Source: Paralichthys olivaceus (lineage: Eukaryota > Chordata > Actinopteri > Pleuronectiformes > Paralichthyidae). From it: 64,000 bases of DNA. Under the pieces are notes generated by a model. It did no database searches and was not told the DNA's origin. It worked only from the letters and a program-made list of their open reading frames with translations. Positions 2,439 through 50,191 of the stretch are shown here, one piece after another. Position 1 is the first letter of the stretch. Every line of letters starts with the position of its first letter. The stretch spans positions 12,571,001 through 12,635,000 of the forward strand of contig NC_091094.1 of NCBI RefSeq assembly GCF_024713975.1. The letters are read 5' to 3'. A program made the position numbers and the translations under genes.

Positions 2439-3133
2439 GTGATTTTTTTACTATTCTTTAAAATTCTTCTTTTTATTTTACACACAGTAAAAATGGATAT
2501 CTGTATTTTGTGGTAAATTGCAGACAGTGTATGAACAAATCCTTCCTTTCTCTTCATACCTTGCTTCTTAACACTACTTACTTTTAAAGTAGGATACTCA
2601 CTCAGCTTTTAGCATCTGAGTCTCTGGGTAACAATGAATATAATGAAAAATGCAGGAACAGGAGTCTCTTACTTTCATCGGTTGACATTTAATGTGTTAT
2701 AAAATGTTCTAGTTTATAATGTGTGTCCTGACCCACTAACAGATTAACCACAGTTCCGGTTTAACACAGGTAGAGGACTTCCTGTTACAGTTTCGATGCA
2801 CTTAGCCTCCACGGGAGTGTGTTAAGTACTTGTATAGCTGTTAAGCACAAGGCTAATTCCAATTACTTGTTGTTGACGTGTGACTTTAGGCACGAGGCAG
2901 GTTCCCTATTGATCAAAGTTTTTAGAGATTTCTAATCTGCGTCAGGCTTACGAGTTTTTAAAAGCTTCTATATCAATCTCATTTAGAGCTCAGCTCTCAC
3001 ATCCTTGCTGTCCTAGATGCCCCATATACACAAATCACCAACTGACCTTTCACCCATGTGGAAAAAAGTAGTTCTTCAGTTTAATGAAACTGTATACTCC
3101 TTTATGGAGATGATACAAATCTTTATCTATCCT
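2439..3133. other. Non-coding stretch, nothing recognised
   Basis: Ordinary AT-rich intergenic DNA between the MITE and the tetranucleotide array. No exon or repeat that I can name. Confidence 0.4.
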
Positions 3134-3703
<570 letters not shown>

Positions 3704-6300
3704 AATTAACGATGAATACATTACTTGCATAGAAAGAGTTTCCACTATGAGTAAAGCAATAGAACAACACTACAATACAACAGATTGTGTTTATTTCAAT
3801 CAAACATTTACATTGTTGACACTAGATGATAAAGTGAAACGTACAAATTCTAGTGATAATACTTTCACATATAGCAACGCCCTGGATGTACTAACAGGAA
3901 ACAATCTGTCACACAGCTTTCATAAGTATGCCAATTCCTCCAAGTGGGATTTCCACACCAAGGAGCTTGTGTTTATCTGCTTAGCATCCAAAAATTGCCA
4001 CTAGCAAGCTGTTAAACTGGAGGGGTTTGGCCCTTTCTAATCTTCAATCCTTGCAAATTGGATTCACACCTCGTACGCAATTCAGAGGTGTTGAGTAGGT
4101 TGTCTGGAAGTCAGGCCGCACGTTAGAGGTGACACCTGTCTCCCTCAATTCACGTCGTCTTCAAAAGTGATTAGAGCAGCCAAGTACTGACTCCACAGGT
4201 CAAAGACCTCAGACTATTTCTGAGGCCAGAGAATATGTCGATTTTATCGCTTTTCTCAAATGCCATGTTTTCCCAGAGACATAGAAAAACTAAAGAAATA
4301 TAATAACATGGAAGATATATGAGTGTACGTGTTATTTTAAATTCTCATGCAACATTTATCGTTATATAACTTATAAAATCAATAAATTCGACAAACTTCC
4401 TTAAGAGTAACATATTACACCTGCTAAGAGCAACACTTATTAACAAATATTGTAATTATTACTGGTGTTTTTTCCTGTGACATTTCTTTTGAGAGACAGA
4501 TTATTAATTGTTACTCATTATTATACATTTCTCGGTTTCTAGCTTTTCCTCTTACAAATCAAAGTCATATGTTTTCTTCAGCCAGGCTGCATGCTGATCA
4601 AATAGATAGCAGCTCACTATAAGTGACAGCATAAATACGTAAATAGCTTAACATAAATGTATGAGGACAAAATGTACACATTGGATTACTGACACGGGAA
4701 ATCAAGAGGTTAGTACATTACAGTTCAAGAGGCTTAACAATTGTTAAATGGTCAGCATTGCATAGACTTATATACCAATGATAATTGCTCATACAATGTA
4801 TAAGTCATTATCACCCCACACAAGCAGGTTATTGTTTCCATTGTTCCCGTACTTATACATTTGTAAGGACCATTTTAAGCAACGACCCTACAGAGAGAGG
4901 ATATTTTTGGAAAGTAAGGACATTTTGAGGCTCTCTTTACCCTCAGACCAAAGGGACCTGCCAGCTCAAATATGCAGTATATCAAATTCATACATACATA
5001 TACAATTATGATTTATATAAATATAAAATGCAGCGTTGATCTGCGGTGAGTATTTCAAGTGGATGTCACTTTCAGTTCATCAGTTTACTCTGACATGTCC
5101 AAACATTGAATTGAGACAGTTGCTGACAGTTTAACAGAAGGTAAATAAGAGCAAAGCCTGTTTGATTGAATTAGTGTGCTAAACATTGTCTGTTAATGTA
5201 CTTTTCTGCTTTTACTATTCATTCACAAAAGAGCCAATAGTCACTGTACTAACTTCCACCGTATAGCAAGGGACCCAATTAAGGTAATAGATTTAAGGGA
5301 AAGTGGCTCAATCAGTGTTAGCTTAACTAGGTAATAATCTTTACTTTAATGATGTAAGATCCCCCTCCTCATCAAAGAGTGAAACCTACAGCGATGTGTA
5401 ATACCTCAGGTACTCAGATACTTGCTTTCTATATTATGTCTATCTTTTTTTTTCTCTCTTTTTTTTTTTTCAAGCTTAGGTATCTGGCCAAAGGACACTT
5501 CATCATGCGGATGGAGAAGACTGGGATCAAACCAGCGACCTAGATTAGAGAAAGCTGCCCAAATTCATAATTTATCCCTCCCTGTTGAATATTTTTGATC
5601 CTGGGACATCTGGGTCATCTATGTAAAACTATTTGTATCTCTATTTTGAAAATGCCCATATACATTTATTATGATTATGATTATTTATTTCGTTTTCAGG
5701 CTGTCAGGTAGGAGAGTAGGGTTGTGCTCTATAATTGCAAAGTTGGTGGTTCGATGCTCCTCTTGTCTGCATATCAAAAGTGTACATGAAGAAGATTTTT
5801 AGGTGAAAAGCTCTATAAAGTGCCTCTCGTTTACTAGAAAAGAGTTTTTGCTGAGTTTAATGTTTCTGTTAAGACACAATATTCAAATTTTCTGTTAAGA
5901 CACTAATATAACTAATAATGAAATGAAAACATTACATATTGCTTCTCTCAGCTTGATGAAGGCCACAACGCGAAACTGTCTCCATGATCTCTGGTTGTTC
6001 TTTTTCATCATTGTCTTTCTGGTCTAATTATGTCATTAACCAATGACCCTTGTAAAAAGTTTGAGAGCAAACACTCTTACTGTAATTGACCAATGCAATA
6101 ATGATACTGAGCAGGTTGTTTAAAGTGGTTTCACAGTGATGAGTTGAGCTGAGATGGCAGCTGACGAGGTTCCTGTAAGTTCATTAACTTATTAAGAACA
6201 ACATAACAGGTGGAAATATAATTATAAAAAACTATTGAAGTTACTAATGAAAAAACGTGAGCAAAACACTAACCTTATTCAATTTGAATCAATGTTTTAT
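3704..6300. other. Non-coding stretch with a small repeat fragment
   Basis: No gene recognised. Around 5470-5545 there is a fragment of a dispersed teleost repeat. Its wording (a phrase like CCAAAGGACACTTCATCATG, followed by ATCAAACCAGCGACC) recurs in related form near 6330-6430, 7750-7800 and 20160-20230. Confidence 0.4.
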
Positions 6301-7830: not shown

Positions 7831-8270
7831 TTGATCACAAGTTAAAGTACAGTTAAAACAAAACAATGGATCAATCGGAGGTTTGAGTCAAATAATAACC
7901 CTTCATTTCCAGCAGTCCGTTTGATGTTATTCTCTTTATCAGAAAGATTAGCACCAATAAAGGCTGGTTGTGTGATTTGTGAGGGTGTTAGTGTCTTAGT
8001 GTTTTAATGTCATGTATAACTAAGTGTTGACAGCATGAAAAAAATATGTCATGACTTTGAATATCCTGGCCAAGAGGCAAAATATACAATAAACGGGAGG
8101 GGCATTAGGACAGAGCCCTGAGGGACACCACATCTTAGCTAAGCAGATGAGTGAGTGGAGTTACACAATGATTGAGAAAGACCTGTTAGAGCCGTAGGAA
8201 TGCATGCTAAAGTCCTTAATTCCTACCAATGTCTCTGGTGGGAAAGAATGATTGACAATATTGAAGGCAG

Positions 8271-8271
<1 letters not shown>

Positions 8272-8354
<83 letters not shown>

Positions 8355-8364
8355 GTATGTATCC

Positions 8365-8418
<54 letters not shown>

Positions 8419-8460
8419 GTATCTATCTATGTATGTATCCATCTATCTATCTATCTATCC
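8272..8460. repeat. (CTAT)n microsatellite
   Basis: Perfect and near-perfect CTAT array of about 190 bp with a few CTATGTAT and CCAT interruptions. The Tyr-Leu-Ser-Ile reading frames across it are artefacts. Confidence 0.97.
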
Positions 8461-8839
8461 ATTACATCTGAAAGAAATGAGCAGTCACCTTTATCTGCAG
8501 TAAGTAATAGCTCATCAGTAACCTTAACAAGTGCTGCATCGGTACTATAAGGTTTTGATGGTGATCGGGTGGTGTTCACCTACTTATTTGCCATACAGTG
8601 TTTGAAGAAGTATTTGCTGGCTGAACAGTAATCCCCTTAAAAGACAAAGACCTAAATCTTTGGAAGTGAACTATTGACCCAGGTACTACTCATCCATCTT
8701 ACATACTGCCACAGATGTGCCTGTGAAACTGTTATGCTGCTTTTACTATATATTTTGATATATTGACATTTACATACAGATTTACATTTCACCAGTGTTA
8801 CAAAATAAAGAGAAGGGTTACTGGTGTTATTCAGTGATG

Positions 8840-10205: not shown

Positions 10206-13200
10206 ATGGAGAACGGCACAGAGGGCAAGAACTTCTACATCCCCATGAACAACAGGACGGGGCTGGTTAGGAATCCATATGAATATACTCAGTATTATTT
10301 GGCGCATCCATGGCAATTCAAGTTACTGGCTCTCTACATGTTCTTCCTGATCTGCACTGGCTTCCCTATCAACGCTCTCACTCTGATGGTCACAGCCCAG
10401 AACAAGAAGCTACGACAACCTCTCAACTTCATCCTGGTCAACCTGGCTGTGGCTGGACTCATCATGGTCTGCTTTGGTTTCACTGTCTCATTTTATTCTT
10501 CTCTAATGGGTTATTTCTCCTTGGGACCATTGGGTTGTGCAATTGAAGGATTCATGGCAACACTTGGAGGTAAACATTGGGAAAGTGATTATTTGCCTTT
10601 ATCACACATGATGATTGTCTAGATTGTCTTTTGTTTTGACTGATGAAGTTGTGGGATAGTGTAACAGATGGCAGGATCAGAAGATTCTCATGACTACATC
10701 TGTTCTCCCTTTCTACCAACAGGTCAAATTTCTCTGTGGTCCCTCGTGGTTCTAGCTGTTGAGAGATATATTGTTGTATGTAAACCCATGGGAAGCTTCA
10801 AATTTACAGCCACCCATGCTGGAGCAGGTTGTGCCTTCACCTGGATCATGGCTGCCTCCTGCGCTGTTCCTCCTCTGGTTGGCTGGTCAAGGTAATCAAC
10901 TACTTACCAATAATGGATCACATGACCCCTTGTCCACATCAAGGAGTGCAGAATAGAGAAGATCTTTATTCACTTCAGAATTATCTAAATTTAGACATTC
11001 ATCTGTGCAACATGGCTTATTTTTGTAGTCGTGTCCTTTTCTTTCTGTTGAATCTGCAATTGTTTCACACAGTCTTAATTACTCTTTTGTTGTTGATGTT
11101 GATGATTTTAATGGATCCAGCAGTGATACCATCTTTTATTGTTGATTGTGGCCATGTTTACCTTTAACTAATCTCCACACATGAGGGTAGGATAATTGGC
11201 TTAAAGCAGAGGCATGTTTACTACCTGTCTTGTCAAGTGACTTCTCATGTGGCTTGCTCTGATGCCTCTCTTCTAAGCTCTCTTCAGCTGCTTTTGCACG
11301 TCCCAGCATTGAAGCTGATAAAGTATTAGCATAACTAATAGGAATAATGGCAAAACCCATAAAACGAGAGCCATCTGTAAATATGAAACAAACAAAGAAA
11401 AACTTCAAGTACACATTTACAACTCTTGAAGATACCATGACCTGAAAATCCAGCTATCCTTCTGTTGTCATGTTGCATTTGTCTCCATGGCTGTGCTCTA
11501 TTGCACAATATAACATAAATAAAAGCAGGCCTTGCCTGACTCAGTAGTACCCCCAGCTCTTGATACAGGCCATGATGATCTTCTGGCTAGTCCCCCTTCA
11601 TACACATTGAACGCTTACAGATGGTCCAGAATGTGGCAGCACATCTGGTCTTCAATGAGCCTAAGAAATGCACATTTCATTTCACCGCTCATCAACCACC
11701 CATGGCCTCATTTAAAAATGTGGACACTATATGGCTGTGGAAATGGGTGTGCTATGTTCAAGCCTTTCTACTTTTTTGCAAATCCACTTTGGCCATTAAT
11801 TACATGTAAATATAGCTGTCTATTGTTGCCTGAAGTGCAAATTCAGATTATATGACAGTGACCTTGAATTTTGTTGTTTTGTATCAACAGCACAAATCAC
11901 ATTATTTCATAGTGGCTTTTCCAGAATCCATCTGAAAGCAATCATTTTGGTGTTGCTCTAACAATCGCTCTGAGATTTTGCTCAGTGCTTCTGCTGGTGA
12001 ATCTTCTGAGCAATTGATGTCAATGATATAATTTTTTAGCTTGTATATTGCATTTACATGCAAACTTTGACACCTGACAAAACCTTTAAATGATTGCAGT
12101 ACTTTGTGGGCCAGTTTGAACTCCTTCCCACAGTCATGCATCATCAAATATTACAGTAAATATTACCTCACCTGATCCTTTTCCTAACAATATGTTTCTT
12201 TCGTGATTTTTTTAACCTTAAAGGGTCAGGGTTAGGACCAGGACCACTGTGTCATTATGTTCTGACTTGTGCATCACATTAGGTCCCACTGACATAAACC
12301 ATTCCTATCCAAGTACAGAAATCCCCAGTTAAATCCCAGTATGTTCTCTATATACTAGTTTGGTTGACACATAGTTATGATTTATAATGTAAACACTGAT
12401 ATCATGTATTTAATGCTATATGTCTTGTATTTACAGGTACATTCCTGAGGGAATTCAGGTCTCCTGTGGACCAGACTACTACACTCTGGCTCCAGGCTTC
12501 AACAATGAATCATTTGTCTTGTACATGTTCACCTGCCACTTCTGTGTTCCTGTATTCACCATCTTCTTCACGTATGGAAACTTAGTGTGCACAGTGAAGG
12601 CGGTAAGAGACGTGCTTTAATCTAGTGTGATGTTTGTAAATGCATTTTGTGGGTGGTTGCAACTGTGTGTAATGTGAAATGAACAAGATGCACACAATAC
12701 AAATAACGAATGATGGCTTAATTTTCAGGCTGCAGCTCAGCAGCAGGAGTCAGAGTCCACCCAGAAGGCTGAGAGGGAAGTGACACGTATGTGCATCCTG
12801 ATGGTGCTGGGCTTCCTCGTGGCCTGGACCCCATATGCCAGCTTTGCTGCCTGGATCTTCTTCAACAAGGGAGCTGCCTTCTCAGCCATCGCCATGGCCA
12901 TCCCTGCCTTCTTTTCAAAGAGCTCAGCGCTGTTCAACCCTGTTATTTATGTGCTGATGAACAAGCAGGTACGATGCTCATAGTGCTTAGAGTCCGTACA
13001 CTTTTTAAATTCTTTATAACAACAGCAGGCAGACAAAAGGACATTTTGAAGTGTTAATTACTATTTATACTTGTGAATATGTATTTACACATGAGGAAAT
13101 GCTTTACTGGCAGGTTTATAAAAATCTGTTTCTACCTCATTAACATGCAGGGATGCTTCACGGGAGGAATCCTATTTGTTGATACTGTACATGCTTACAA

Positions 13201-13654
13201 TCACACTATAGTGCTCTAAAGATATGGATGACCAGATTATTACAATCTACAAATGCTCCTCAAAACACTTTCAAAAACACAATACATTTAAGTAAAACTA
13301 GAAACAATGAACTGTTATTTTTATAAAATAAAAGTATATTAGTGTCAATTTAATCTGAGTTTTCAAAATAATAAAAATGATTGTTTGCCTGATCTGTATA
13401 ACTACAATTCTATTTGAGTTATAGTTATATTGTTATTAGAATGCACTATGAATCACAGAAATGCTAAACAAGTGTTTCCAGTATAACTTGTTTTGTTTTT
13501 GTTTTGCATTCAATGATTATTGATTTTTTAATTGTACAATATTCTCCATTTTCAGTTCCGTAACTGCATGCTGACCACTGTTGGAATGGGCGGTATGGTG
13601 GAGGATGAGACCTCAGTATCAACCAGCAAGACAGAAGTGTCCTCTGTTTCCTAA
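10206..13654 (+). CDS. rh2b: RH2 green-sensitive cone opsin, gene 1 (RH2B type)
   Basis: Light-sensing G-protein-coupled receptor of cone outer segments; binds 11-cis retinal and activates cone transducin. Coding exons by splice sites and homology are 10206-10569, 10723-10891, 12437-12602, 12729-12968 and 13556-13654, giving 345 residues. Exon lengths of 169, 166 and 240 for exons 2-4 match vertebrate rhodopsins. Seen (bovine numbering): N-glycosylation NGT and NRT near the start, counterion E113, C110/C187 disulfide pair, ERY at the end of TM3, W265, retinal-binding Lys296 in the motif [14 protein letters not shown], and a Ser/Thr-rich tail. Residue 122 is Gln, 185 is Val, 207 is Met, 292 is Ala and 295 is Ser. 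Q122 and the short MENGTEGKN start suggest the shorter-wave RH2B class. Intron 2 (1545 bp) is swollen by a LINE fragment. Exon 4 is almost identical to that of gene 2. No disabling change seen. Paralog class is inference. Confidence 0.95.
10892..12436. other. Intron 2 of opsin gene 1, enlarged by inserted sequence
   Basis: At 1545 bp this is about ten times the matching introns of genes 3 and 4 (122 and 139 bp). It holds a LINE fragment near 11600-11830. It also holds two unidentified minus-strand open frames, 11136-11438 (100 codons) and 11902-12147 (81 codons). The minus strand before codon GATGGCTCTCG near 11374 looks like a splice acceptor (TTTCATATTTACAG). I do not recognise either frame; they may be remnants of an inserted element. 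Confidence 0.5.
11600..11830 (+). mobile_element. LINE fragment in gene 1 intron 2
   Basis: The plus strand reads [12 protein letters not shown] in one frame and [16 protein letters not shown] in another. The latter matches the L2/CR1/Rex1 reverse-transcriptase C-terminal block (LQ.VQN.AARLV, then HWLP). Both frames are broken and the copy is decayed. Confidence 0.6.
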
Positions 13655-16412: not shown

Positions 16413-19097
16413 ATGGAGAACGGCACAGAAGGCAAGAACTTCTACATCCCCATGAACAACAGGACAGGGCTTGTGAGAAGTCCTTTTGAATATCCACAGT
16501 ACTACCTGGGGGATCCCATGTTCTTCAAATTTCTTGCCGTATACATGTTCTTCCTGATCTGCACTGGCTTCCCCATCAACGCTCTCACTCTGCTAGTCAC
16601 GGCTCAGAACAAAAAACTCAGGCAACCTCTCAACTTCATCCTGGTCAACCTGGCTGTGGCTGGACTCATCATGGTCTGCTTTGGGTTCACCATCACCTTC
16701 ATCACTGCTATTAATGGCTATTTTATTTTTGGACCAATGGGTTGTGCCATTGAGGGATTCATGGCTACTCTGGGAGGTATGATATAGTAACAATGTTTGT
16801 ACTGAATTTTGTTGCTTTTGTATCTGGAAATTCCTTTTTTATTTTACTTAAAATATTTTCTGAAAGGGTCTTATGCAACTAGAGTCATGAACACATGTCT
16901 TCTGTTCTTTCATTATGTCCCAGGTCAAGTTGCTCTCTGGTCTCTGGTCGTCTTGGCTGTTGAGAGATACATTGTCGTCTGCAAACCCATGGGTAGCTTC
17001 AAATTCACTAATTCACATGCAGGAGCAGGTGTTTTGTTCACCTGGATCATGGCTCTATCTTGTGCTGCCCCTCCACTGGCTGGCTGGTCTAGGTAACAGC
17101 AAACATCTCACTGAAACACTAAAACTGCAGCCTCTGCATCCACCTGATGATTTCAGGGTGCTAGGGGGAATGGAAGGATTTCACACTTGGAAGCTGAGAG
17201 CTAATTTACAGAAAACAAAACTTAGTGCTCAGTCAACAAACACAAAACCTCAGAACAAACTAGCATTCATGTTGTCCAGTTCTGTGGCGTCAACATTTGG
17301 CTAATCTGATTGATCATTAACATCGGAACCCTCAGCACTAGCCTTTGCCTTGTCCATCTGAAAAAAACAAGCAAGCTTCTTCCTATCATTGGATGAAGAC
17401 CCACAGTGTGCGACGCATCGCAATATGCAATTCTTGCGAGAAATCTTGCCCGATCAACCCAAGTTACATAGTTATACCTTAAAATGACCTTCTCCTGTGC
17501 TTTTCTGACCATGACGAATCAGAATGTCTGCTGCTTTCTGAAGAGAAGCTTTACCAAATAGACTTAGACTTTGATACCATTCATTAAAACAACCCCAGAA
17601 ACTCCATAGAGCTTTGACTTAAACCAATTATATTGCTAATTATGGGGAAATTGAACTGTGAAGATGGCACGTTGGAAAAAGCTTTTTGCAAATGATTCAT
17701 TATTCAACACTCTCTGATAAGATGGACAGGGTGCAGCTCATGTACTAACACTAACTAACAACAATTTAACAAATAGAATCTTCGCTGAATATTAATGATA
17801 AAGTAATAGTGAGGAAAGGGTATAACTAAGTTTTCTTGTTTCTTAACTTTCCTTAAAGTATACCTAGAGCTCATTCATAGATCAGGTTTGAATGATTTTC
17901 TCTTTTCTCTCACAGGTACATCCCTGAGGGCATGCAGTGCTCATGTGGACCAGACTACTACACTCTGTCTCCGGGCTTCAACAATGAATCATACGTCATG
18001 TACATGTTCATCTGCCACTTCTGTGTCCCAGTTGGCACCATCTTTTTCACCTACGGAAGCCTTGTGCTCACAGTCAAAGCTGTAAGTCCTACCCTCTGTG
18101 CCACACTCACCTGCACATTGAGCTCAGTGGTCACACCTGCAGCTCAGCAGCAAAACTGTGTTGAATTCTTGGCTAAATCCTGAAGAAATACAGTGGTTGC
18201 AAATGTAGTTGCTTTTCATTTAAAGCTCTAAAACAAAACTTTCTGATCTGTGAATCTTGACGATATTGTGTGTTTCTCAAACACTTCAGGCTGCAGCTCA
18301 GCAGCAGGAGTCAGAGTCCACCCAGAAGGCTGAGAGGGAAGTGACACGTATGTGCATCCTGATGGTGCTGGGCTTCCTCGTGGCCTGGACCCCATATGCC
18401 AGCTTTGCCGCCTGGATCTTCTTCAACAAGGGAGCTGCCTTCTCAGCCATCGCCATGGCCATCCCTGCCTTCTTCTCAAAGAGCTCAGCGCTGTTCAACC
18501 CTGTTATTTATGTGCTGATGAACAAGCAGGTCAGTTTATCACTGAACTGTAGCAACTGTTACTGCAGAACCCAGGTCTTTGGTCCGTGTTGCTTGGGGAC
18601 AATAATAAGCACATTTCAGTCACTTAATAAGTTGTATTTTTTGATAATATTGCAGCAGTTAGTTTGATTCTTTGTCCAGTGTTTCAAGGATTCAGTTGAA
18701 CAGTTTACTAAGAAATTGCATTGTTGTTGTACAGGCCTGTAACCAGTAGGAGGCTCAATAGTTCAGATTTGACAGTATCATAGTGCCTGTAACTCATAGC
18801 TTCTCTTATACAGTGAGCAACACTATGTTAAGTCCTTTTGATCCATTTCTAATAAATCTAAGTTTTAAATTCTGCAGCTGTTCTTAATATGGCATTCATC
18901 ATGATATTTGATTAGTAGATTTGAGCGCATAGTTTCTTCATGTGAGACATGTTTAAAATTGTCTGGTTTCTCACCTCTATACATTTTCTCCCTTTCAGTT
19001 CCGTAACTGCATGCTGAGCACTATTGGAATGGGTGGCATGGTTGAAGATGAGACCTCAGTATCAACCAGCAAGACAGAAGTGTCCTCTGTCTCTTAA
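16413..19097 (+). CDS. rh2: RH2 green-sensitive cone opsin, gene 2 (RH2B/C type)
   Basis: Cone visual pigment with the same fold and role as gene 1. Coding exons are 16413-16776, 16924-17092, 17916-18081, 18290-18529 and 18999-19097, giving 345 residues with all GT-AG introns. The start [19 protein letters not shown] matches gene 1 over 19 residues. Conserved features are E113, C110/C187, ERY, W265, Lys296 and NPVIY. Tuning residues (bovine numbers): Q122, M207, A292, S295. TM2-TM3 differ from gene 1 ([17 protein letters not shown]), so it is a distinct pigment. Exon 4 is 238/240 identical to gene 1 with both differences silent. The second half of intron 3 is closely similar to that of gene 3. 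Intron 2 is 823 bp and carries an unidentified minus-strand frame (17267-17512). Whether it is RH2B2 or RH2C in published schemes needs a tree. Confidence 0.95.
17093..17915. other. Intron 2 of opsin gene 2, enlarged
   Basis: 823 bp, several-fold longer than in genes 3 and 4. The minus strand of 17267-17512 is open for 81 codons (including [20 protein letters not shown]) and may be from an unrecognised inserted element. No link to an expressed gene can be shown. Confidence 0.35.
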
Positions 19098-22676: not shown

Positions 22677-24194
22677 TTAAGAAACAGAGGACACTTCTGT
22701 TTTGCTGGCAGACACTGAGGTCTCATCCTCCACCATGCCTCCCATTCCAATAGCGCTCAGCATGCAGTTACGGAACTGAAGAGGTGAAAGAAAGAAGAGA
22801 AACATTAGAGTAAAAAACATTCTGTGTTCTCCATGTTGGGTTTAAACACTGACAATATAGGTAACATCTTTTTTATATGAACTAACCTGTTTGTTCATCA
22901 GCACGTAGATAACAGGGTTATAGAGAGCTGAGCTCTTAGCAAAGAAGGCAGGGATGGATGCAGTCAGGGCGGTGAAGGCAGCTCCCTTGTTCATGAAGAT
23001 CCAGCCAGCGAAAGTGGCATATGGGGTCCAAGCCACGAGGAAGCCAATGACCATCAGGACGCACATACGTGTCACTTCCCTCTCAGCCTTCTGGGTGGAC
23101 TCTGACTCCTGCTGCTGAGCTGCAGCCTGAAGTGTTTGAGAAAATTCACAGAACAGAATGATTTGTTATAGAGCTTTAAATGAAAAGCAAATATATGAGC
23201 AAACAATTCAATTTCTTCAGGATTTAGCTAAGAATTCAACATCTCATATATTTTATGTTTGACTTACAGCTTTGACTGTCAGCACAAGGCTTCCGTATGT
23301 GAAGAAAATCACAAAGACGGGAACGAAGAAGTGGACGACAAACATGTAGATGACGTATGACTCATTGTTGTAGCCGGGGGCCAGAGTGTAATAGTCTGGT
23401 CCGCAAGAGCACTGCATGCCCTCAGGGAGGTACCTGTGTGAGATGGAGACAGAGCCATTATTAAGAGCTAAAACTGGAGCCGTGCAAGAAGCTCTGCTAT
23501 CAAACCAACCTCATAAGTTCACTGTCATGCACTGTTCATAGGAATGTGAATTTACCTGGACCAGCCGAACAGTGGGGGGCCAGCACATGCAAAAGCCATG
23601 ATCCAGGTGAAGAGGACTCCAGCTCCTGCATGAGTTCCGCTGAACTTGAAGCTTCCCATGGGTTTGCAGACGACGATGTATCTCTCAACAGCCAGGACGA
23701 CCAGAGACCAGAGAGCGACTTCACCTGTAGAGAGACAAGAGTGAATTCAGGTTAACTTTCAAGACTTTAATGCAACCCTGGTAGTGAGAATTAGTTGATT
23801 GACATTTACCTCCGAGTGTAGCCATGAATCCCTCAATAGCGCAGAAAGTGGCTCCCAGAATGAAGTAGCCGTTAAAAGCAGAGGTGATGGTGATGGTGAA
23901 TCCGAAGCAGCACATGATGAGTCCGGCCACGGCCAGGTTGACCAGGATGTAGTTGAGAGGTTGCCTGAGTTTCTTGTTCTGAAACGTGACCAGCACTGCC
24001 AGACCGTTGATGGGGGTTCCAGTGCAGATCAGGAAGAACATGTAGAAAGCTAGAAGTTTGTACATCATAGAATCTACCATGTAAAACTGAGGGTATTCAA
24101 AAGGACTTCTAACAATCCCAGTCCTGTTGGACATGGGGATGTAGAAGTTCTTGCCCTCTGTGCCATTGGGCTCGATTCCTCCGTCCCAAACCAT
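22677..24194 (-). CDS. rh2a: RH2 green-sensitive cone opsin, gene 3 (RH2A type, Glu122)
   Basis: Cone visual pigment on the minus strand. Coding exons in transcript order are 24194-23810, 23724-23556, 23433-23268, 23126-22887 and 22775-22677, giving 352 residues. The open frame continues upstream to an ATG at 24317, but that lies beyond the TATA box at 24287-24293. The start [16 protein letters not shown] is therefore at 24194, as in gene 4. Seen: E113, C110/C187, ERY, W265, Lys296 in [14 protein letters not shown]. Exon 2 opens with Gly-Glu-Val, so residue 122 is Glu, the only one in this cluster; 207 is Met, 292 Ala, 295 Ala. E122 in the RH2 family is linked to longer-wave (about 500-530 nm) absorption, so this is probably the most red-shifted pigment here. 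Intron 3 and the first 66 bp of exon 4 look like gene 2, not gene 4. Confidence 0.95.
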
Positions 24195-24286
24195 CTTCGA
24201 TTGTCTGTTGTTTCTGCTGAGCTTCTTTGGCTGAAAAAAACCCAATAGTGCTGATGGACACGAGAGTCTGATTTGCACTGACTGAC

Positions 24287-24293
24287 TTTTATA
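24287..24293 (-). promoter_or_regulatory. TATA box of opsin gene 3
   Basis: On the minus strand this reads TATAAAA, 93 bp before the ATG at 24194. It sits at the downstream edge of a proximal module shared with gene 4. Confidence 0.75.
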
Positions 24294-24349
24294 CCTCAGC
24301 ACTAACCTTGTCGTCAAATTGCCAAAATGAGATTACAGGATTGTGAGGT
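24294..24349 (-). promoter_or_regulatory. Proximal promoter module shared with gene 4
   Basis: On the minus strand: CCTCACAATCCT, then TAATCT, ATTTTG, ATTTGA and, after a variable gap, AGGTATAAAA. The same blocks in the same order precede gene 4 (31394-31455). AATCC and TAATCT resemble CRX/OTX photoreceptor sites. I do not find this order before genes 1 and 2. Confidence 0.6.
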
Positions 24350-26044
24350 GGTACAGGAGGTCAGTAATTACTCTAACCCCCCCGCCTAGGCCCTGAAGTA
24401 ATTTGCTCCACTTTCCAAGTTCAACTGAGTTCTCCTAATCCTGATTTAAGAATGTGAAATAAGTTCCGTCAGTAGCTTTTAGCATGTTATTTGCTGTGAA
24501 CACATTTTGAACAATTAAACCTGGAGGCATAAGGAAAATCTAATTTGTCTGGATAAATTAATCATCAGTGTATTGATTTATGTGCAATTTAAAACCTATG
24601 GCTGTTTTCCATTTCTATGCTCATTTGAATAAAACATGCAGAAGTGGTGCTATTTTAATTTCCTACTTTCAGGCTTGTCCAGCAATCTGGAATTTCAATC
24701 ACCATTATCCAACTGTATATGAAAAGATTTGTAGGTGTGCTCATCCTGATTAACCTCGGAGCCTCACCTGCAGAGGCCTTGTTGTGATGTAGCAAGAGCT
24801 TACTGTCACAGACGAGAAAGAGAACGTCTGCGAGACACTTATCGAACTTGTCACTTACCTCAGGGTCAAGTGTTGCCCTCAGTGTTACTGAAGTGGGACA
24901 ATAGATAGAAATCAGTGGAAGTCAGAGGAGCCTGACTGACGCCAATAAAATTCTGTTGCTACGGGCGATTAATTGTTAATTCACTGCAAGTAAAAGCTGC
25001 CTGTGATTATCTGTTTACATTCAGTGAAATCTAGGGTTTTTAATTGTTTTAAATGTTGTGCTTGTTAAAGTGGGTCTGTCTTAGTTGAATCGAGTACTTG
25101 TATGATGTAAGTTATTGCTTGTAAAATTTATAGCGGCAAGTTAAATGTGGTTCAATAAAGACTTTTGCCATTTTAACCTAGTTTTTTTGGTCCTAGTCTG
25201 CTAATTGAATGCAGGATTTTTGTAGTGTATTGATGCTTGTTAAATGTAGTTTTTGCTTGTTAGATAAACATTTTACTTTACTTGTTTTTTTTTGTAGTAT
25301 TCTTATCGTATAAAATTGTGGTTTGCTTGGCAAATGTAGTCTGGTTTAATATAGGATTTTACTCAATATGTTTCTTGCTTTTTAAATGTGTGTTGTCTCT
25401 TGTTAAATGTGGCTTTTTGCCTGTTCAATAAATATATAGTTTATACAGTTAATATACTTTTAGTTAAATGTTAAATGTCTGTTTGTTTAATGCAGGGTTG
25501 TACTTTTAATGAAGTTTGTCACTTGATTAATGTAGTGATTTACTTGTGCAATGCAGTTTTTAGGTCATTCTCTGTATTTTAATTAAATGCAATATGTGTA
25601 GACTTTTAACATCTCTTGATTTTTTATTTTTTTTATTTCCATTCATCCATTTATCTGTATCTGGCCTTTGTCATTGGTGGATGAATATGTGCTTCAAAAC
25701 TAATTTAATTGAAAGGTTTGATGAGTACACCAATGAGCTTTAATGTCTGACCTTAATTTAAGGCAAACCAGATGAATAAATTAACAATAACATTATCACA
25801 CTGAATGTGTCACAGGTGCAACCCTTCGCACCTTACCTGCCAAAGCACATAACAAACTAAGCGGACGACTTAGAGGCCATCCGGTGTTAAGGTCATTAAC
25901 AAATTGTTTCTACTTACCTCACCCAGACTGAAATCTAATTTAGCTAATTCACGGCTGTCACTGTTAAAAAAATAAGATGCACTAATTAAGGTGTGAATGC
26001 GCACATCCACACACAAGCTGATTGTGTCCATCCACTTACTGAAG
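24350..26044. other. Upstream region of opsin gene 3, with a degenerate repeat
   Basis: No gene seen. From about 25060 to 25590 the plus strand is a G/T-rich diffuse repeat with recurring pieces such as CTTGTTAAATGTAG and TTTAATGCAGG, looking like an old decayed minisatellite. The flanking parts are unique-looking. Confidence 0.45.
25060..25590 (+). repeat. Degenerate minisatellite-like tract
   Basis: Variants of (C/G)TTGTTAAATGTRG and TTTTGYTTG recur at irregular spacing over about 500 bp, with few C on the plus strand. The unit length is unclear, roughly 30-60 bp. Confidence 0.45.
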
Positions 26045-27084
26045 ATTTGAAGTATTGAGCAAAATTCTCTCGGCTCACAGGATCAGGAGTGTGTCCCTTT
26101 TGACACACAAAGTTTTATTAGACAGATCTTGGTTCGTTTGTCTTTGTCTGACCTGTGACTCCATCAGAGATCTGCTATTGTTCCCGGACTCTCTTTCAAC
26201 CTCTCGACTGAATCCTGGTGAAGTCAGCTGTGGTTGGACTGAAGATGTGCAACTCTGGATTCACCATCAACCACAACATCTACTAAACTGTCTTTACTGT
26301 GAAGGGATGCATGGCCAAACTCTGAGGTAAAGTGCAAATTAAGATATCACAATTATCTGAAAATTGATAAATAGTTCATATGTTTGATAATTTATGATAT
26401 ACTTAATAATATTTCTTGCCTCTGATCCTGACATTACACTTTTGAGTCTTGTCAGAAGGTCACTGTAAGTATTAGTTGTAGTTGCAGTGCAGAGGTGGAG
26501 CATATGATGCTCACATTTCAGCTTCACACTCAACAGACTATTACAATGAGCTAAAAAATCTTAGAAATGGGTAGATTTATCAGGTATCTACCTGACAAGC
26601 TGGCACTGTGCATAGTTGCTGCTGTTAAAGGCACTGGTTGATTTACTTCTACTACTGGTAATAGTGGTAATCCACTAATATTACAATTAATTGTAGACCC
26701 TTTCAAAATACTGATTCAAAGTGGTTTATCAAACAATACATAGAAATGAAAAACCCATAAAAATATGTAATTTATAATGATCTATAATATCAATAAAGCT
26801 GTGGATCAATACTACAATAAATCAATTTAATCATAAAACCCATTTTACATCCAGATCCAGGTTCTATTGTCTCCGTGCTCAAAAAGGAACAAAATACAGG
26901 CAAGTAAAACAGAACACATTTGTAAGAGCGCAGTAAGGAGTAAAAGGTTTTAGAGACAAACGACTAAAAAACACCTTAAAAAAATATCTTCTTAACAAGA
27001 ATATAAGCTACATGACCAACTACAGACCATTTGCAAATCTGGGGCATTATATCTATAATATAGACAGAATCTGTGAGGTTCCAC

Positions 27085-28139
27085 GGGCCTCATTTATAAC
27101 CGTTGCATACGCGTCGTGCAGACGCGTCGTGCAGACCCCATTTTGTGCATAATACGCCACTTCACACAACCATTGGGATCTATAAAAACCTGACGGGAGA
27201 ATGTACGCAAACTTTAACCCATGTGTTCAAATACTTTGGATGCAGCAAAGTGGCAGAGTTGAGGAGGTGAAGTCAGATTATTGTTCCATTTCATCATTAA
27301 CATTACAACCATTGTTATTTTCTTGCAACATAATTGTTTCATTAGAACCTTCAGTTGAACACGGTACAAAACAACTTTAAGCAAATAGCATAAAATAAAA
27401 GTTGCACAACGGAGTGATTAATAGTTTTTAATAAAAAATGCTTATGTGTAATGCTGCGTGATGGATGCACTGGCACTGTATATAAATATATAGATTCTAA
27501 AGATCTTTGATCTTTGTGCTGAATGGAGTCCAAAACTACACAGACCGACCTGACGGAACCAAACCATCCCAGTACAAACACAAATACTGACCCCTCTGGG
27601 TTCATTAGCAGACAGATTAACACTGTTTAATTATTTACTGTTCTTCTCAATGCCCCTTTTGGGAATAATGTCATTTGGTAAAATTTTTCACATTCTGACA
27701 GCAAGGAATATTTTTTGCTTCCACCTTAAAGGTCCAGTGTGTAAGATTTAGGTGAAAGGGATCTATTGGCAGAAATTGAATGTAGAATAATCCTCATGAT
27801 GTTTTCACTAGCTCGTTTCATCTACATTGTTTGAATTGAGTTTTCTTTAACCCAGAAAAGGCCCTTTATACTTAAATACGTTTTTTACATTAGTCCAGAC
27901 TGGACAAACTAAACACCTTTTGAGTTTTTATGACAACTGTTGTCATTCAGTGTATTTTCTTTTGATATCACTGCTGTGGCAACCATACATTCTGTCTTTT
28001 TCTTCACCTCCACCTCACTAAGCTCCTCGATGTTAGCAGGTGGACTGTGATTGTTTTTGCCTACACCATTTTCCGGCTTTTGCACGCACATACACTTTTA
28101 GTATGAATCCTACGCACTGTTTTATACATGAGGCTTATG
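27085..28139. mobile_element. DNA transposon or MITE copy with terminal inverted repeats, carrying a nested MITE
   Basis: The left end GGGCCTCATTTATAACCGTTG and the right end, read on the minus strand, CCATAAGCCTCATGTATAAA share the CCTCAT.TATAAA core of a common teleost terminal repeat. A 13-bp direct repeat (ACGCGTCGTGCAG twice) lies at 27109-27134. A MITE of another family interrupts it at 27726-27942. No transposase is recognisable. It sits inside the opsin relic. Confidence 0.6.
27726..27942 (+). mobile_element. MITE fragment (CAGTGTGTA family), nested
   Basis: Begins TTAAAGGTCCAGTGTGTAAG and runs through about 215 bp similar to the reverse complement of the right half of the copy at 2065-2438. 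The other terminal repeat is missing. It is inserted within a different element. Confidence 0.8.
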
Positions 28140-28835
28140 GTGATTACAAGTTATTGGCTTTAAGAACTTGCCTGTAAACATATGCGACCCTTGCCACAGA
28201 GAGAGAGAGCTCCATGGTCCATGGACTACAAGAGTAAGACTGAGTGATCCTCTGCACAAAGTCAATTATTGTCAAGTCACCACACTGAGAGACCGATGTA
28301 TTGAGAGCACGGAGCGTAAAGAAAATGTACTTTAGAGAGGCTGTTATTAATTGTAGCAGTTTACAGTAAAAGGTACAGTGAATAAAACACATTATCTTTA
28401 TAATCATGATGTCTGAAATATTTCCCTTCACACTGTCTCAGTGTTGCATGTCCAGATGTCTTATCATCTACATTCCTACAGTTATGGGGACATTGTGTTT
28501 ACTATCAGCAGCTGTGGGCAATTTTCCATTTTTTACAATTTATCAATGGAGCCAGTGAATAAAATGCATAATTGTGGGGCTTGTGTTTATATTTTTGATC
28601 ATACGTGCAGTCAGACCATCAGAGTGGCTTGAATGTCACCATGTCCAACTTCAAATGCAGCAGGAGTGAACTGACACAGACTGTATTGAGTTGAGCTGGT
28701 TGGCTGGACTACATACTCCACCTCTGCAGGTTAGATAATTTGCTGGCTCGACAGCAGCATCTCCTGCTGTCTTTGGAAAGAACTCAGTGCAGCATAATCC
28801 AATTATCTATGTGCTGTTGAACAAACACGTGCTAA

Positions 28836-31393
28836 AACCTGCAAATACTCTTAAACAGCGTGAACAACCTGCACAAATATCCCTGTGTACTTTCTGTTGA
28901 TATGTAATGATGCTGCCAATGTTTGAATTCAATATATTCAATGTTTATAAACATCATGAGTAAAACAGTTCTTCCTTTTTATTATTAGAGATGGAAATGT
29001 TTTATTTTATTCATTTATAAGTGACTATGTTATGTGTGTGTATATATATATAATATATAATAATAATTAAAAAAATAATTACACATTGTTTTTTTTTGAA
29101 AACATACTGTTTGTACAGCTTTAGAGTAATGTTTGCTTCATGATTAATGTCTATGTTGGTGTTTGCCAGTGAGACAAACCAATATGTCATAAAAATAAAG
29201 ACATTAACTCAAATCTGGAAACTCGTCTTTCTTTCTGATTCTGTATTATTGTACACGTGTGTGACACTCAGTCCGTGGACTTGTGAGCCTTGAGTCCGTC
29301 ACTGCAGTCAAATCATGTTTGCAGAGACCGTCAGACCTGAGCTGGGGTCTTAACCCTCACATTAAGCGTCCAGAGGCTTAAAGGGTCTGTGACTCTATGG
29401 AGCTGGCAGAGAGATTTCATGTGGAAACTCTAATCACTAAAATCCCAGAATTCTTTACTTTAATACTAATGTACATATTCTATATCCATTATAATGGCAC
29501 AATTATCTGCTGTTTACTCTTAAGCCTTAAATATTCATTGAAGTTAAGTGTTAAGTTTAACTTTCAAGTACTTTACTTGAGTTGAGTTACTTAGTACCCT
29601 TTACTCCACTACACTTGTATAAAAACTTTAGTAATTTGCCAGGTTATTACAGGCCTACAAAAATGGTCAAAATATCAAATGTCATCGACTCTTGTATAAA
29701 ACAATAGTTTTAACCTGAGGGATGCAACATTTTACACATTTACATGTTTTAATTTAGTGCAGATGCTACACATTTGCCCACTCATGAAAACGTTATTTGA
29801 TATTCTACATAAAATTTGTAATACCACAGAGTAGATTTACTGTATTTCAAGTAAAAGTACAATGAAAATACTGTATTACTGTATTTACTATGTTTTGCCA
29901 GTTCAAGATGTTCCCGTCAGTACGAGGCATTGTTACAGAAAAACAGCCTGATAGGTGATATCATCAATGCCATCACAGCAAGTGCAGTGTAGAATAAATA
30001 AGGGGTCAAACATAGAGTTAGGGTGTCAACAACCAACCTCATCCATGGACTCTGCACTTCCTGGGGTCTCCAGCATCCCTCCAGTTTGAAATGGATCATA
30101 TGAGCGACTGACATGGAAATCGAAGGGCAGGCAGGCAGACAGAGATTTCTGGAAACAATGACATGATAATATTTGATGTATTAATATATCGCAAGAAACT
30201 TTATTTTAAATCAGAACCTATAATAAAAACTCCTTATTTTAGATAATATTTTGTTTTTTCAATGTCTCTAATGTGACCAAAATAATGGTGGAGTAAAAAG
30301 AAGCTAACAGTATTTTTCTCTAATGTTATAATGTAACAGGTACCACAAGTATCTCAAAACTCAGTCTACAGTCCATACGGTCTACTTGACTTGTTACTTT
30401 CCACCACTGCATTTAACACATGAATGTACCAGACCACTAAAGGACTATTTAAAATGGCTTTTATTTTGATATTTTAAAAGCATTTAGCTGTTGAGACTTA
30501 CTGTGTGCTCCTGAGTGGTAGAAGTGTATTTAACGTCTTGTGATTGGCCATGATGAGCAGCAGAGACATGAGGCGAACATCACAGACTGAGACCAGAGTC
30601 TGAGAAGCTGTACAGCGCGGTTTGTTGATCTACAATCGAGTGAAGTCTTCCTCGATTCAATCATCTTGACCTGGATCTCGATATAAAACTGCTACGTTGG
30701 AAATCCTCCAACCTTCAAAATAAAGCTCATTTTAAAACAAAGTTGACCGACATGGTTGAAACTCCACAAAGTTGTCACCTCCACAGCTGCAGAAAAACAC
30801 ACAGGCTTCTTTCTCCATCATTTGATGTTTAGGTCTGGAGGAAGCTTTCCCTAGCAGGTGGTCCTGATCTCCAGTCTAGTCTCAACATGCATTTCAAAAA
30901 ACATCAGAGATCAGAATTGTCTGCAGCAAGTGGTCACTGTTGGGGGTCAGTGAGAGGCCTCTCAGCAGGGTGCGAGTCTGTGTCAGCTGAGCAAAGCCTC
31001 TACTCTACGCACTGCACGCTAGTCAACAACATTCTATCCACATATTAGATATTATCATTCATCATAACTTTACATAACTTCAAATAATTTTCAATTTCCA
31101 ATTAATTACTGTCATAACTAGTACTTTGATTATTTAAAAAGTAGTTGTAGTTTCTGACTTAAATAACTAAAATGTATTCTTCTATTAAAAATAAATGCAG
31201 GCTGCAATGAACAGATAAAGTCATCCTTTTATTAGAACTGGCAGTACTGTTAATATCCATAAATGCTGATACTTTGCTGTTTCACATGTATTTCACAACA
31301 GCGAGCGCAAACAAATGTGTTCTTTAAGTTTCCATCCCTCCCCTTACTGCATTTCTTAAAGTCAATTATAAATCAGACATGAGCTCTCCTCTT
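28836..31393. other. Non-coding region upstream of opsin gene 4
   Basis: No gene recognised. At 29917-30114 the minus strand is open for 65 codons with a hydrophobic stretch, but I cannot match it to a family. A TA-rich simple tract lies near 29040-29065. The rest is ordinary intergenic DNA between the divergently transcribed genes 3 and 4. Confidence 0.4.
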
Positions 31394-31448
31394 CCTCACA
31401 ATCCTCCTCTAATCTAATTTTGCCGATTTGAGGATAACATCAGGAAGG
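31394..31448 (+). promoter_or_regulatory. Proximal promoter module shared with gene 3
   Basis: CCTCACAATCCT, TAATCT, ATTTTG, ATTTGA and AGGTATAAAA occur in the same order and nearly the same spacing as on the minus strand before gene 3. AATCC and TAATCT could bind CRX/OTX. Confidence 0.6.
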
Positions 31449-31455
31449 TATAAAA
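31449..31455 (+). promoter_or_regulatory. TATA box of opsin gene 4
   Basis: TATAAAA, 129 bp before the ATG at 31578. An upstream ATG near 31468 is out of context and lies close to the expected start of transcription. Confidence 0.75.
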
Positions 31456-31577
31456 CAACACCCAGGGATGCATAAGCTGCCTGTGAGGGGTTGGCTTAAA
31501 CCACTGGTGACTGCTGCACGACCTCGCACACCGTCGGCACTCTCCATCCATCGAAGCTCCAGCGAAGGTGAACGGAC

Positions 31578-33082
31578 ATGACTTGGGACGGAGGAATCGA
31601 GCCAAATGGCACAGAGGGCAAGAACTTCTACATCCCCATGTCCAACAGGAGTGGAGTCGTCAGAAGTCCCTTTGAATACCCTCAGTATTATTTGGCGGAT
31701 CACATCATGTACAAGATTCTTGCCGTCTACATGTTCTTCCTGATCTGCACTGGAACCCCCATCAACGGTCTGACGCTGCTGGTCACGGCTCAGAACAAGA
31801 AACTCAGGCAACCTCTCAACTACATCCTGGTCAACCTGGCCGTGGCCGGACTCATCATGTGCTGCTTCGGATTCACCATCACCTTCACCTCTGCTTTTAA
31901 CGGCTACTTTGTCCTCGGAACCACTGCCTGTGCCTTGGAGGGATTCCTGGCCACAGTTGGTGGTAAGAATGAAGAAGCAGAGGACATTTTCAGGGATTAT
32001 AGAATAAATTATGCTCCTTATTAACTTCTCCTTAACGTCTCTTACCCTCTTGTCTCTACAGGTCAAGTGTCTCTCTGGTCTCTGGTCGTCCTGGCTGTTG
32101 AGAGATACATCGTAGTCTGCAAACCCATGGGAAGCTTCAAGTTCACTGGTACTCACGCAGCAGCTGGAGTCATCTTTACCTGGATCATGGCTTCTGCATG
32201 TGCTACTCCTCCTCTTTTTGGCTGGTCCAGGTAAAATTTACTTTTAAAAAAATCTTCATTGCACTTTTGAAAGCCAGTAAATTGACGTTCACACACACAG
32301 CATAGACACAGAGGACCACAGGCTGTTTTAACTGAATGTCCTCATGATCTTCTTCCCTTGTGTACACAGGTACATCCCTGAGGGCATGCAGTGCTCCTGC
32401 GGACCCGACTACTACACTCTGGCCCCCGGCTTCAACAATGAATCATACGTCATTTACCTGTTTGTCGTCCATTTCTTGGTTCCTGTCTTCATCATTTTCT
32501 TTACTTATGGAAGCCTTGTCCTGACAGTCAAGGCCGTGAGTAAACTTTTGAATCTTCTGACGTTATTGAGATGTAACATGTACATCGTAGAATTTATTTC
32601 ATGAACTTCCCGAATGTTGGGTATCCTTGTAATTGATCAAACTCTTTAGGCTGCAGCCCAGCAGCAGGACTCGGCCTCTACTCAGAAAGCTGAGAGGGAA
32701 GTGACACGCATGTGTGTCCTGATGGTCATTGGCTTCCTGGTAGCTTGGGTACCATATGCCACTTTCGCCGCCTGGATCTTCATGAACAAGGGAGCTGCCT
32801 TCACCGCTCTGACTGCAGCCATCCCTGCCTTCTTCGCTAAGAGCTCGGCCTTGTACAACCCTGTTATCTACGTGCTGATGAACAAACAGGTTGGCCTAGT
32901 ACATCTCCTCTTTCCCCATTAGTCAATACTACATTCTGCATAAGCTTCGTTTCTGAATATTCTCTCTTTATGCTCCTCTTCAGTTCCGTAACTGCATGCT
33001 GAGCAGTATTGGAATGGGCGGCAAGGTGGAGGATGAGGCCTCGGTGTCTGCCAGCAAGACAGAGGTGTCCTCTGTGTCTTAA
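31578..33082 (+). CDS. rh2a: RH2 green-sensitive cone opsin, gene 4 (RH2A type, Gln122/Leu207)
   Basis: Cone visual pigment. Coding exons are 31578-31962, 32062-32230, 32370-32535, 32650-32889 and 32984-33082, giving 352 residues with short introns of 94-139 bp. The start [16 protein letters not shown] groups it with gene 3. Seen: E113, C110/C187, ERY, W265, Lys296 in [14 protein letters not shown], and the usual Ser-rich tail. Unlike gene 3 it has Gln at 122 (exon 2 opens Gly-Gln-Val), Leu at 207 ([10 protein letters not shown]), Val at 119, and Val at 266 where the other three have Thr. Gln122 with Leu207 is the pair known to blue-shift coelacanth RH2, so a shorter-wave pigment than gene 3 is expected. 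Exon 4 begins [15 protein letters not shown], unlike the QQQESESTQ of genes 1-3, so it seems not to have shared their conversion. Confidence 0.96.
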
Positions 33083-33671: not shown

Positions 33672-33868
33672 TAAAGGTCCAGTGTGTAAGATTTAGGTGA
33701 AAGGGATCAATTGGCAGAAATAGAATGTAAAATAATTCCTGTTTTGAGTCGGGTTCTCCTTCATGTTTGGAGGGGGAGGGTGAGGTGAGGGGTATTCAGC
33801 CTGCAGCTGAATACCCCTCACCTGCAATTTCACCACTAGATATCACTAAATTCTACAAACTGAACCTT
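33672..33868 (+). mobile_element. MITE (CAGTGTGTA family), internally rearranged
   Basis: Left end TAAAGGTCCAGTGTGTAAG, right end TTCTACAAACTGAACCTTT. Much of the middle seen in the copy at 2065-2438 is gone. An 18-bp perfect inverted repeat (33783-33800 and 33806-33823, loop CTGCA) has formed from internal sequence. Confidence 0.8.
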
Positions 33869-37959: not shown

Positions 37960-40784
<2,825 letters not shown>

Positions 40785-49145: not shown

Positions 49146-49855
49146 CTTCAGCACACAGCACGGGGCGGCTGCATGCAGGAGCTATTGGGGAAATCTTTTT
49201 ACACCTCCTAATCTGCATCCGCGTGCTCTGCCCACAGACTGAATAATGTTCCCCATTTCAGTGACAATATCACAGGGAACCCGTGGCAGCCATCTTAGGT
49301 GTACCACTGCAGGACGGGACGATTCAGTGAAGCGACGATCTCAAGGACGAGCCGCCGCGCATCCGTCACTGCCCCGGTTCATGCGCTCAGCACCGCGGAC
49401 AGCTCCCCGGCAGAAGGAGGAGGAGGAGGAGGAGGAGGAGGAGGAGGAGGCCATCACCCGCTCCCACCAGAAAAAAATAATCTCTCTCCTTCTCCTCATC
49501 CGTACACTACTCCCTCCCCCCCATCCTCCTATCCCCCTCTCACCTCCCCCCTCTCACATCCGCAGCAGTGACTGGCCAATAAAACACAGAAGATACGTAA
49601 GCAGCGACGAGTGCTCGGCGCAGGCGGAGAAAGCTCAGTGTGAAGCGGACTCAACCTCCTCCAGCTCCACTCGTACTGCTGACATCCCTCAGCACAACCA
49701 GGGCCTCCCCCTGCCTTCACTCCGGGTATATTCCACCATCTACAAGCAAAAGGATTAAAGACAGCGGCACCGACCACCACCGGGGCACTGACAACCCCTT
49801 CCTCCACATTGAGAAGGTTAGGCTTTCTGTAGGGACGTGTCACCTCTAGTGCAAG
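49146..49855 (+). promoter_or_regulatory. CG-rich promoter and 5' UTR region of cadps
   Basis: Base composition changes from AT-rich to CG-containing and GC-rich, as expected for a CpG-island promoter, directly before the cadps ATG. A (GGA)n run lies at 49414-49450. A long upstream frame (49246-49758) runs through that repeat as poly-Glu; it is out of family and is taken as untranslated leader. No TATA box evident. The start site is not defined. Confidence 0.5.
49414..49450. repeat. (GGA)n microsatellite in the cadps leader
   Basis: Trinucleotide GGA run of about 37 bp within the CG-rich segment. Confidence 0.9.
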
Positions 49856-50191
49856 ATGTTAGACCCGTCGTCCAGCGAGGAGGAATCTGATGGGATAGTG
49901 GAGGAGGAATGCAAGGAGGCGATGGCACCCCAGGCCGGGTCCCGCATCTCCCCGAGTCGGACCAGCGAGAGCTCAGGCGGACTCGCTCCCAGCAGCAGCA
50001 GCCGCAGCAGCGCCCGTCCGACGAGCCCGAGCCCGTCCGCCGTCAGCGAGGAGAAGGAGGACCTGGAGAAGCTGCAGAGGGAGGAAGAGGAGCGCAAGAA
50101 GAAGCTGCAGCTGTATGTGTTTGTGATGCGATGCGTTGCTTATCCCTTCAACGCCAAACAGCCCACAGACATGGCAAGGCGACAGCAGAAG
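49856..50191 (+). CDS. cadps: Calcium-dependent secretion activator 1 (CAPS1), first coding exon
   Basis: CAPS1 primes dense-core vesicles for calcium-triggered exocytosis in neurons and endocrine cells. This exon encodes 112 residues, from [18 protein letters not shown] to RRQQK, and ends exactly at a codon before a GTAAGG donor. The acidic start, a Ser/Pro-rich middle, a charged [19 protein letters not shown] helix-like part and the block [20 protein letters not shown] are typical of CADPS N-termini. The later exons, which would carry the C2, PH, MUN and C-terminal domains, are not found before the window ends, so intron 1 is at least 13.8 kb. The gene is partial because the window stops. 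CADPS2 also has a related start, but the [12 protein letters not shown] opening and synpr next door favour CADPS. Confidence 0.93.

Follow-up and report, generated by a model that had tools for sequence, protein, structure and literature searches.

Does the 7.4 kb that lies between two intact green cone opsin (RH2) genes of the Japanese flounder hold the remains of a further RH2 gene, and, if so, where in the history of the array does that gene belong? The window, by which we mean the whole 64 kb stretch of DNA analysed, carries four intact RH2 genes in a tandem array, each with five exons, consistent splice sites and an open frame: gene 1 (10206-13654) and gene 2 (16413-19097), both on the plus strand and encoding 345 amino acids, followed by gene 3 (22677-24194, minus strand) and gene 4 (31578-33082, plus strand), each encoding 352 amino acids. 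At sites 97, 122, 207 and 292, which we number through our own alignment to bovine rhodopsin, the tuning residues are S97/Q122/M207/A292 in gene 1, T97/Q122/M207/A292 in gene 2, S97/E122/M207/A292 in gene 3 and S97/Q122/L207/A292 in gene 4. The same residues appear, for genes 1-4 in turn, in the Table 3 rows for Japanese flounder RH2A1, RH2A2, RH2B and RH2C (PMC8186084). Two published naming schemes for RH2 conflict and gene numbers are used here; flounder naming has RH2-A for genes 1 and 2 (as does medaka naming), RH2-B for gene 3 and RH2-C for gene 4, and cichlid naming has RH2B for genes 1 and 2 and RH2A, as a group, for genes 3 and 4. The array order, genes 1-2 and then 3-4, agrees with the Rh2B-Rh2A order inferred for Neoteleostei (PMC5686071).

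Several further features of the window were recorded. Exon 4 of gene 1 (12729-12968) and exon 4 of gene 2 (18290-18529) are identical at 238 of 240 bases, whereas identity over exons 1-3 of the two genes is 78-83%, a contrast that points to recent gene conversion. Gene 3 runs in the opposite direction to genes 1, 2 and 4. The open frames at 37963-38397 (minus strand) and 49850-50233 (plus strand) resemble what we take to be synaptoporin (SYNPR) and the start of CADPS, respectively; SYNPR and CADPS are neighbours of RH2 arrays. A Pfam search with three open frames returned no family. Finally, the long open frames at 3017-4004 and 8176-8550 read (LSIY)n in several frames and are probably a four-base tandem repeat.

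The interval between genes 3 and 4 was searched with profiles made of the four copies of each exon, all filters being off, first over 24201-31570 and then over the whole window. Using nhmmer, the exon 1 profile matched 26076-26324 (49.5 bits, E = 4.9e-16) and the exon 4 profile matched 28664-28827 (45.5 bits, E = 1.3e-14) in 24201-31570, and the E-values in the whole window were 4.2e-15 and 1.2e-13, respectively. Both remains lie on the plus strand and are colinear, and their best local alignment scores of 80 (exon 1) and 74 (exon 4) compare with maxima of only 40 and 34 in 100 shuffles each. These alignments bear out the suggestion of the first-pass annotation that the two blocks derive from RH2. 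Outside the intact exons, no further profile match below E = 0.1 was found in the 64 kb window, and hence no sign of another relic by this search.

The remains of exon 1 (26038-26326, plus strand) run from about codon 12 to the splice donor and contain many gaps and stops. With the gene 3 protein as query, the tblastn match starts at 26038, and no ATG is present at the aligned start. Over 26077-26326, 177 of 250 aligned bases are identical to gene 3, with 68 bases missing in 11 gaps. The exon-1-like stretch ends in GAG/GTAAAG (the slash marks the splice point), corresponding to G/GTAA or G/GTAT in the intact genes, so that the donor is preserved as had been proposed. The remains of exon 4 (28664-28828, plus strand, from nhmmer) comprise the block for TM7 and close with the donor CAC/GT; a lenient alignment extends them more weakly back to about 28604. 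The two peptides quoted at first inspection, ILVKSAVVGLKMCNSGFTI for exon 1 and GKNSVQHNPIIYVLL for exon 4, are present within 26182-26268 and 28739-28825, respectively.

The 3' end of the relic lies farther downstream. An alignment covering the end of exon 5 and the start of the 3' UTR was found at 29158-29293 (plus strand), in which the exon part, 29158-29192, closes with TAA where the normal stop lies. This alignment scored 56 with gene 3, 49 with gene 4, 39 with gene 2 and 28 with gene 1; the score of 56 was reached by none of 500 shuffles, the best of which scored 46. Without the UTR, exon 5 was reached at the nucleotide level by 5 of 500 shuffles. The exon 5 call rests on the nucleotide match together with the UTR because the protein alignment was at chance (436 of 500 shuffles). 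The extent of 26045-28835 first given for the relic therefore holds at its start, where the gene 3 protein match begins at 26038, but not at its end, since the relic reaches about 29190-29293.

Profiles of exons 2, 3 and 5 gave no credible match in 24201-31570. For exon 2, a protein-level match at 26460-26528 (plus strand), in which LVVVAVQRW aligns with LVVLAVERY, begins about 134 bases past the exon 1 donor; the first introns in the intact gene models are 85-153 bases long. The protein score of this site was reached by 5 of 500 shuffles and its nucleotide alignment was at chance (417 of 500), and we regard it as a likely remnant of exon 2. An exon 3 had been called probable but was given no coordinates, and we thus took the best-scoring site, 28441-28512 (plus strand), which ends roughly 90-150 bases ahead of the exon 4 remains. 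Shuffles reached the score of this site in 35 of 500 cases at the protein level and in 116 of 500 at the nucleotide level, indicating that exon 3 is not established; the site is retained as a tentative remnant of the exon 3 end. Of the five-exon structure, then, exons 1, 4 and 5 are recognisable, exon 2 is likely and exon 3 is tentative. Approximately 2.3 kb separates the remains of exon 1 from those of exon 4 and about 330 bases separate exon 4 from the exon 5 remnant, and splice donors remain after exons 1 and 4. This intron-like spacing and the retention of donors mark the relic as a duplicated, unprocessed gene and not a retrocopy. The relic and gene 3 stand head to head, about 1.8 kb apart, and gene 3 is inverted with respect to it.

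The sequence of the relic is extensively disrupted. In one lenient alignment with gene 3, exon 1 shows 13 deletions and 3 insertions (12 frame-changing) and exon 4 shows 8 deletions and 7 insertions (13 frame-changing); against gene 4 the corresponding counts are 12 deletions and 1 insertion for exon 1 (8 frame-changing gaps) and 6 of each for exon 4 (12 frame-changing gaps), all of these counts varying with the alignment used. Stops also interrupt the aligned frame. A general deletion bias was considered and is not claimed, since it is seen in exon 1 and absent in exon 4 (8 versus 7 and 6 versus 6).

Intron 2 of the relic holds two dispersed repeats, both on the plus strand. The older, at 27085-27330, has at least 40 matches including itself (the best 40 of 51 candidates), and its other copies are 67-89% identical, mostly about 70%, among the matches listed. 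The younger, at 27726-27939, has at least 46 matches including itself, which is a lower bound because the best 40 of 1249 candidates were scored, and its other copies are mostly 78-95% identical among the matches listed. Positions 2185-2439 and 33672-33736 of the window belong to the same dispersed family as 27726-27939, which has dozens of copies in the genome. A reading of the region around 27.08-28.15 kb as one large transposon found no support: its terminal inverted repeats scored 25, whereas 200 shuffles gave scores of up to 39.

The relation of the relic to the intact genes was approached through shared bases, trees and rooted likelihoods. Of 451 aligned columns, the relic shares the base of gene 1 at 267, of gene 2 at 274, of gene 3 at 291 and of gene 4 at 290. 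At 39 sites where genes 1 and 2 agree with each other and differ from genes 3 and 4, the relic carries the gene 3/4 base at 22, the gene 1/2 base at 10 and neither at 7. By exon, these counts (3/4 : 1/2 : neither) are 9:4:3 in exon 1, 10:6:4 in exon 4 and 3:0:0 in exon 5; exon 4 by itself barely separates the clades, with 105, 104, 108 and 104 of 165 columns identical to genes 1-4. In an unrooted tree, genes 1 and 2 are set apart from the relic, gene 3 and gene 4 with a bootstrap of 100. Outgroups for a rooted test came from the same genome (588 Mb, 25 contigs), in which a protein search found, on contig C6, an intronless RH1-like gene and an exo-rhodopsin-like gene; further opsin-like genes were listed on C2 (several, at 22.65-22.67 Mb) and on C23 (one, at 0.084 Mb). 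These matches, the further ones taken simply as opsin-like, fit the set of ten opsins reported for Japanese flounder (PMC10044895). With RH1 and exo-rhodopsin as outgroups and likelihoods computed on fixed trees, whose differences carry no significance level, the relic falls inside RH2. The best placements elsewhere, equal for a position beside genes 1/2, outside RH2 or with the outgroups, lose 8.2 lnL over 415 columns and 4.4 lnL over the 179 safest columns. On the aligned bases, then, the relic groups with genes 3 and 4 and is closer to neither of them. Where gene 3 differs from gene 4, it matches gene 3 at 18 sites, gene 4 at 17 and neither at 12; the three placements within the gene 3/4 group lie within 0.63 lnL of each other; and the inner bootstraps are weak (all columns join the relic to gene 4 at 52, and the safest 214 join gene 3 to gene 4 at 41).

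The alternative that survives best is that the relic arose as a copy of gene 3 or gene 4 once those two had split, or as a copy of only part of their exons, and is not an older gene in its own right. Placements beside gene 3, beside gene 4 and outside both are equally likely, the UTR scores highest with gene 3, and little or nothing can be recognised of exons 2 and 3, all of which would fit such an origin. Nevertheless, remains of exon 1, of exon 4 and of the exon 5/UTR end occur with gene-like spacing, indicating that the copy spanned the gene, and the length of the relic branch argues against a late duplication. With outgroups, this branch is 0.60-0.61 substitutions per site over all columns and 0.46-0.48 over the safest columns, and without outgroups it is 0.57 and 0.43, respectively; the branches of genes 3 and 4 are 0.02-0.07 substitutions per site. 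The dS between genes 3 and 4 is 0.355, and the relic branch (0.43-0.61) is far longer than half of that distance (0.18). We therefore consider a later or partial duplicate rather unlikely, and the relic predates the split of genes 3 and 4 unless gene conversion has kept these two genes alike or misalignment inflates the relic branch. Its death was probably old as well, at or before the separation of genes 3 and 4. The RH2B/RH2C split has been dated to about 71 million years (PMC8186084); naive dating from this figure, with the relic branch divided by the gene 3-4 synonymous rate, yields about 170 million years or more, a value that we do not trust and of which we keep only that the relic is old.

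Could the relic still serve another purpose, such as regulating the RH2 array or giving rise to a non-coding transcript? An upstream block is common to genes 3 and 4 and ends at the TATA-like GGTATAAAA (score 62, against a best of 52 in 200 shuffles). Upstream of the relic, 25301-26000 showed no promoter likeness to any of the intact genes above 200 shuffles each, the scores being reached by 66, 143, 141 and 188 of 200 shuffles for genes 3, 4, 1 and 2, respectively. With this similarity gone and the exon blocks freely decayed, a retained function seems very improbable.

The first-pass annotation had also named a match of the blocks to an unrelated repeat family elsewhere in the genome as an outcome that would refute it. 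A DNA search of the genome with 26040-26600 returned only itself, and one with 28400-29300 returned itself and a single 67-base match to the AT-rich 29021-29085, outside the exon blocks. Such searches detect close copies only, even the intact paralogs not being returned, and thus exclude a recent repeat family and not every diverged copy; within that scope, the exon blocks have no close copies in the genome. It is therefore hardly credible that the blocks resemble opsin exons by chance, or belong to a repeat family that looks like such exons by accident, in spite of the shortness of the blocks, their identity of roughly 65-75% each and the repeats in relic intron 2, given E-values of 1e-14 to 1e-16, the correct order and strand, the additional exon 5/UTR and the failure of the DNA searches to return any closely similar copy of the exon blocks.

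The locus is thus best read, as first proposed, as a dead fifth copy of RH2 on the plus strand: exons 1 and 4 align to RH2 and no close repeat copies of them were found, and neither outcome named as refuting the proposal occurred. We conclude that 26.04-29.29 kb is almost certainly an unprocessed pseudogene of an RH2 opsin gene, a tandem duplicate within the RH2 array. A tandem duplication in the array would have made an extra copy of the gene 3/4 type, which presumably lost its promoter or its frame afterwards and may then have decayed free of constraint as repeats entered intron 2. Judged from its disrupted frame, the relic would yield no opsin today. More tentatively, the relic may be what is left of a third RH2 lineage within the gene 3/4 type, one that branched away early in percomorph history and ahead of the split between genes 3 and 4; we consider this origin possible, and somewhat doubtful. 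Were it true, the relic would help to order the duplications and losses of RH2, since a copy in decay probably takes no further part in gene conversion with its neighbours and could preserve a less blended record of the early array.

RH2 pseudogenes are well known and RH2 copy number is highly variable, and the relic is a further example. In the barfin flounder, Verasper moseri, an RH2-A pseudogene has been described (PMC5773313), which is likewise a dead RH2 copy in a flatfish that kept other RH2 genes. As described there, a single nonsense mutation and no indels mark the Verasper moseri pseudogene, whose type (RH2-A) is that of genes 1 and 2; the relic, by contrast, is heavily decayed and sides with genes 3 and 4. 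Atlantic halibut likewise has a presumed dead rh2 copy among its rh2 genes, a pseudogene misannotated by gene prediction whose first three exons were taken as correctly annotated (PMC9110347). On that description, the halibut pseudogene is neither shown nor excluded as an ortholog of the relic. An RH2 pseudogene of pufferfish was reportedly treated by Neafsey and Hartl in 2005. Tetraodon is described as having one functional RH2 gene and one RH2 pseudogene (PMC3116502); there, as here, an anciently duplicated RH2 copy was lost, albeit in another lineage, and the likeness is one of description, not of sequence. Among percomorphs, rh2a was probably duplicated early and lost repeatedly, gene conversion obscuring its history (PMC11874681). 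This second copy, with its early origin and several losses, resembles the relic; the losses reported there were deduced from the presence or expression of the copy across species, whereas here the decayed sequence of a lost copy persists. Neither the pseudogene passages of PMC5773313 nor the main text of PMC10044895 mentions a gene 3/4-type pseudogene in Japanese flounder, and no published title describing the relic was found in a search that left aside the RH2 survey of Musilova and Cortesi 2023.

The expected effect of the relic on the inferred history of RH2 loss holds only in part: it adds one more loss on the gene 3/gene 4 side, but frequent losses of RH2 were on record before. Inferences on how fishes adapted to light draw on counts of visual opsin genes, and such counts may omit pseudogenes; a gene absent from the annotation can still leave recognisable remains. 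The positioned relic provides independent evidence of an extra RH2 gene in the ancestors of this lineage, and it is useful mainly as an old marker within an array blurred by gene conversion.
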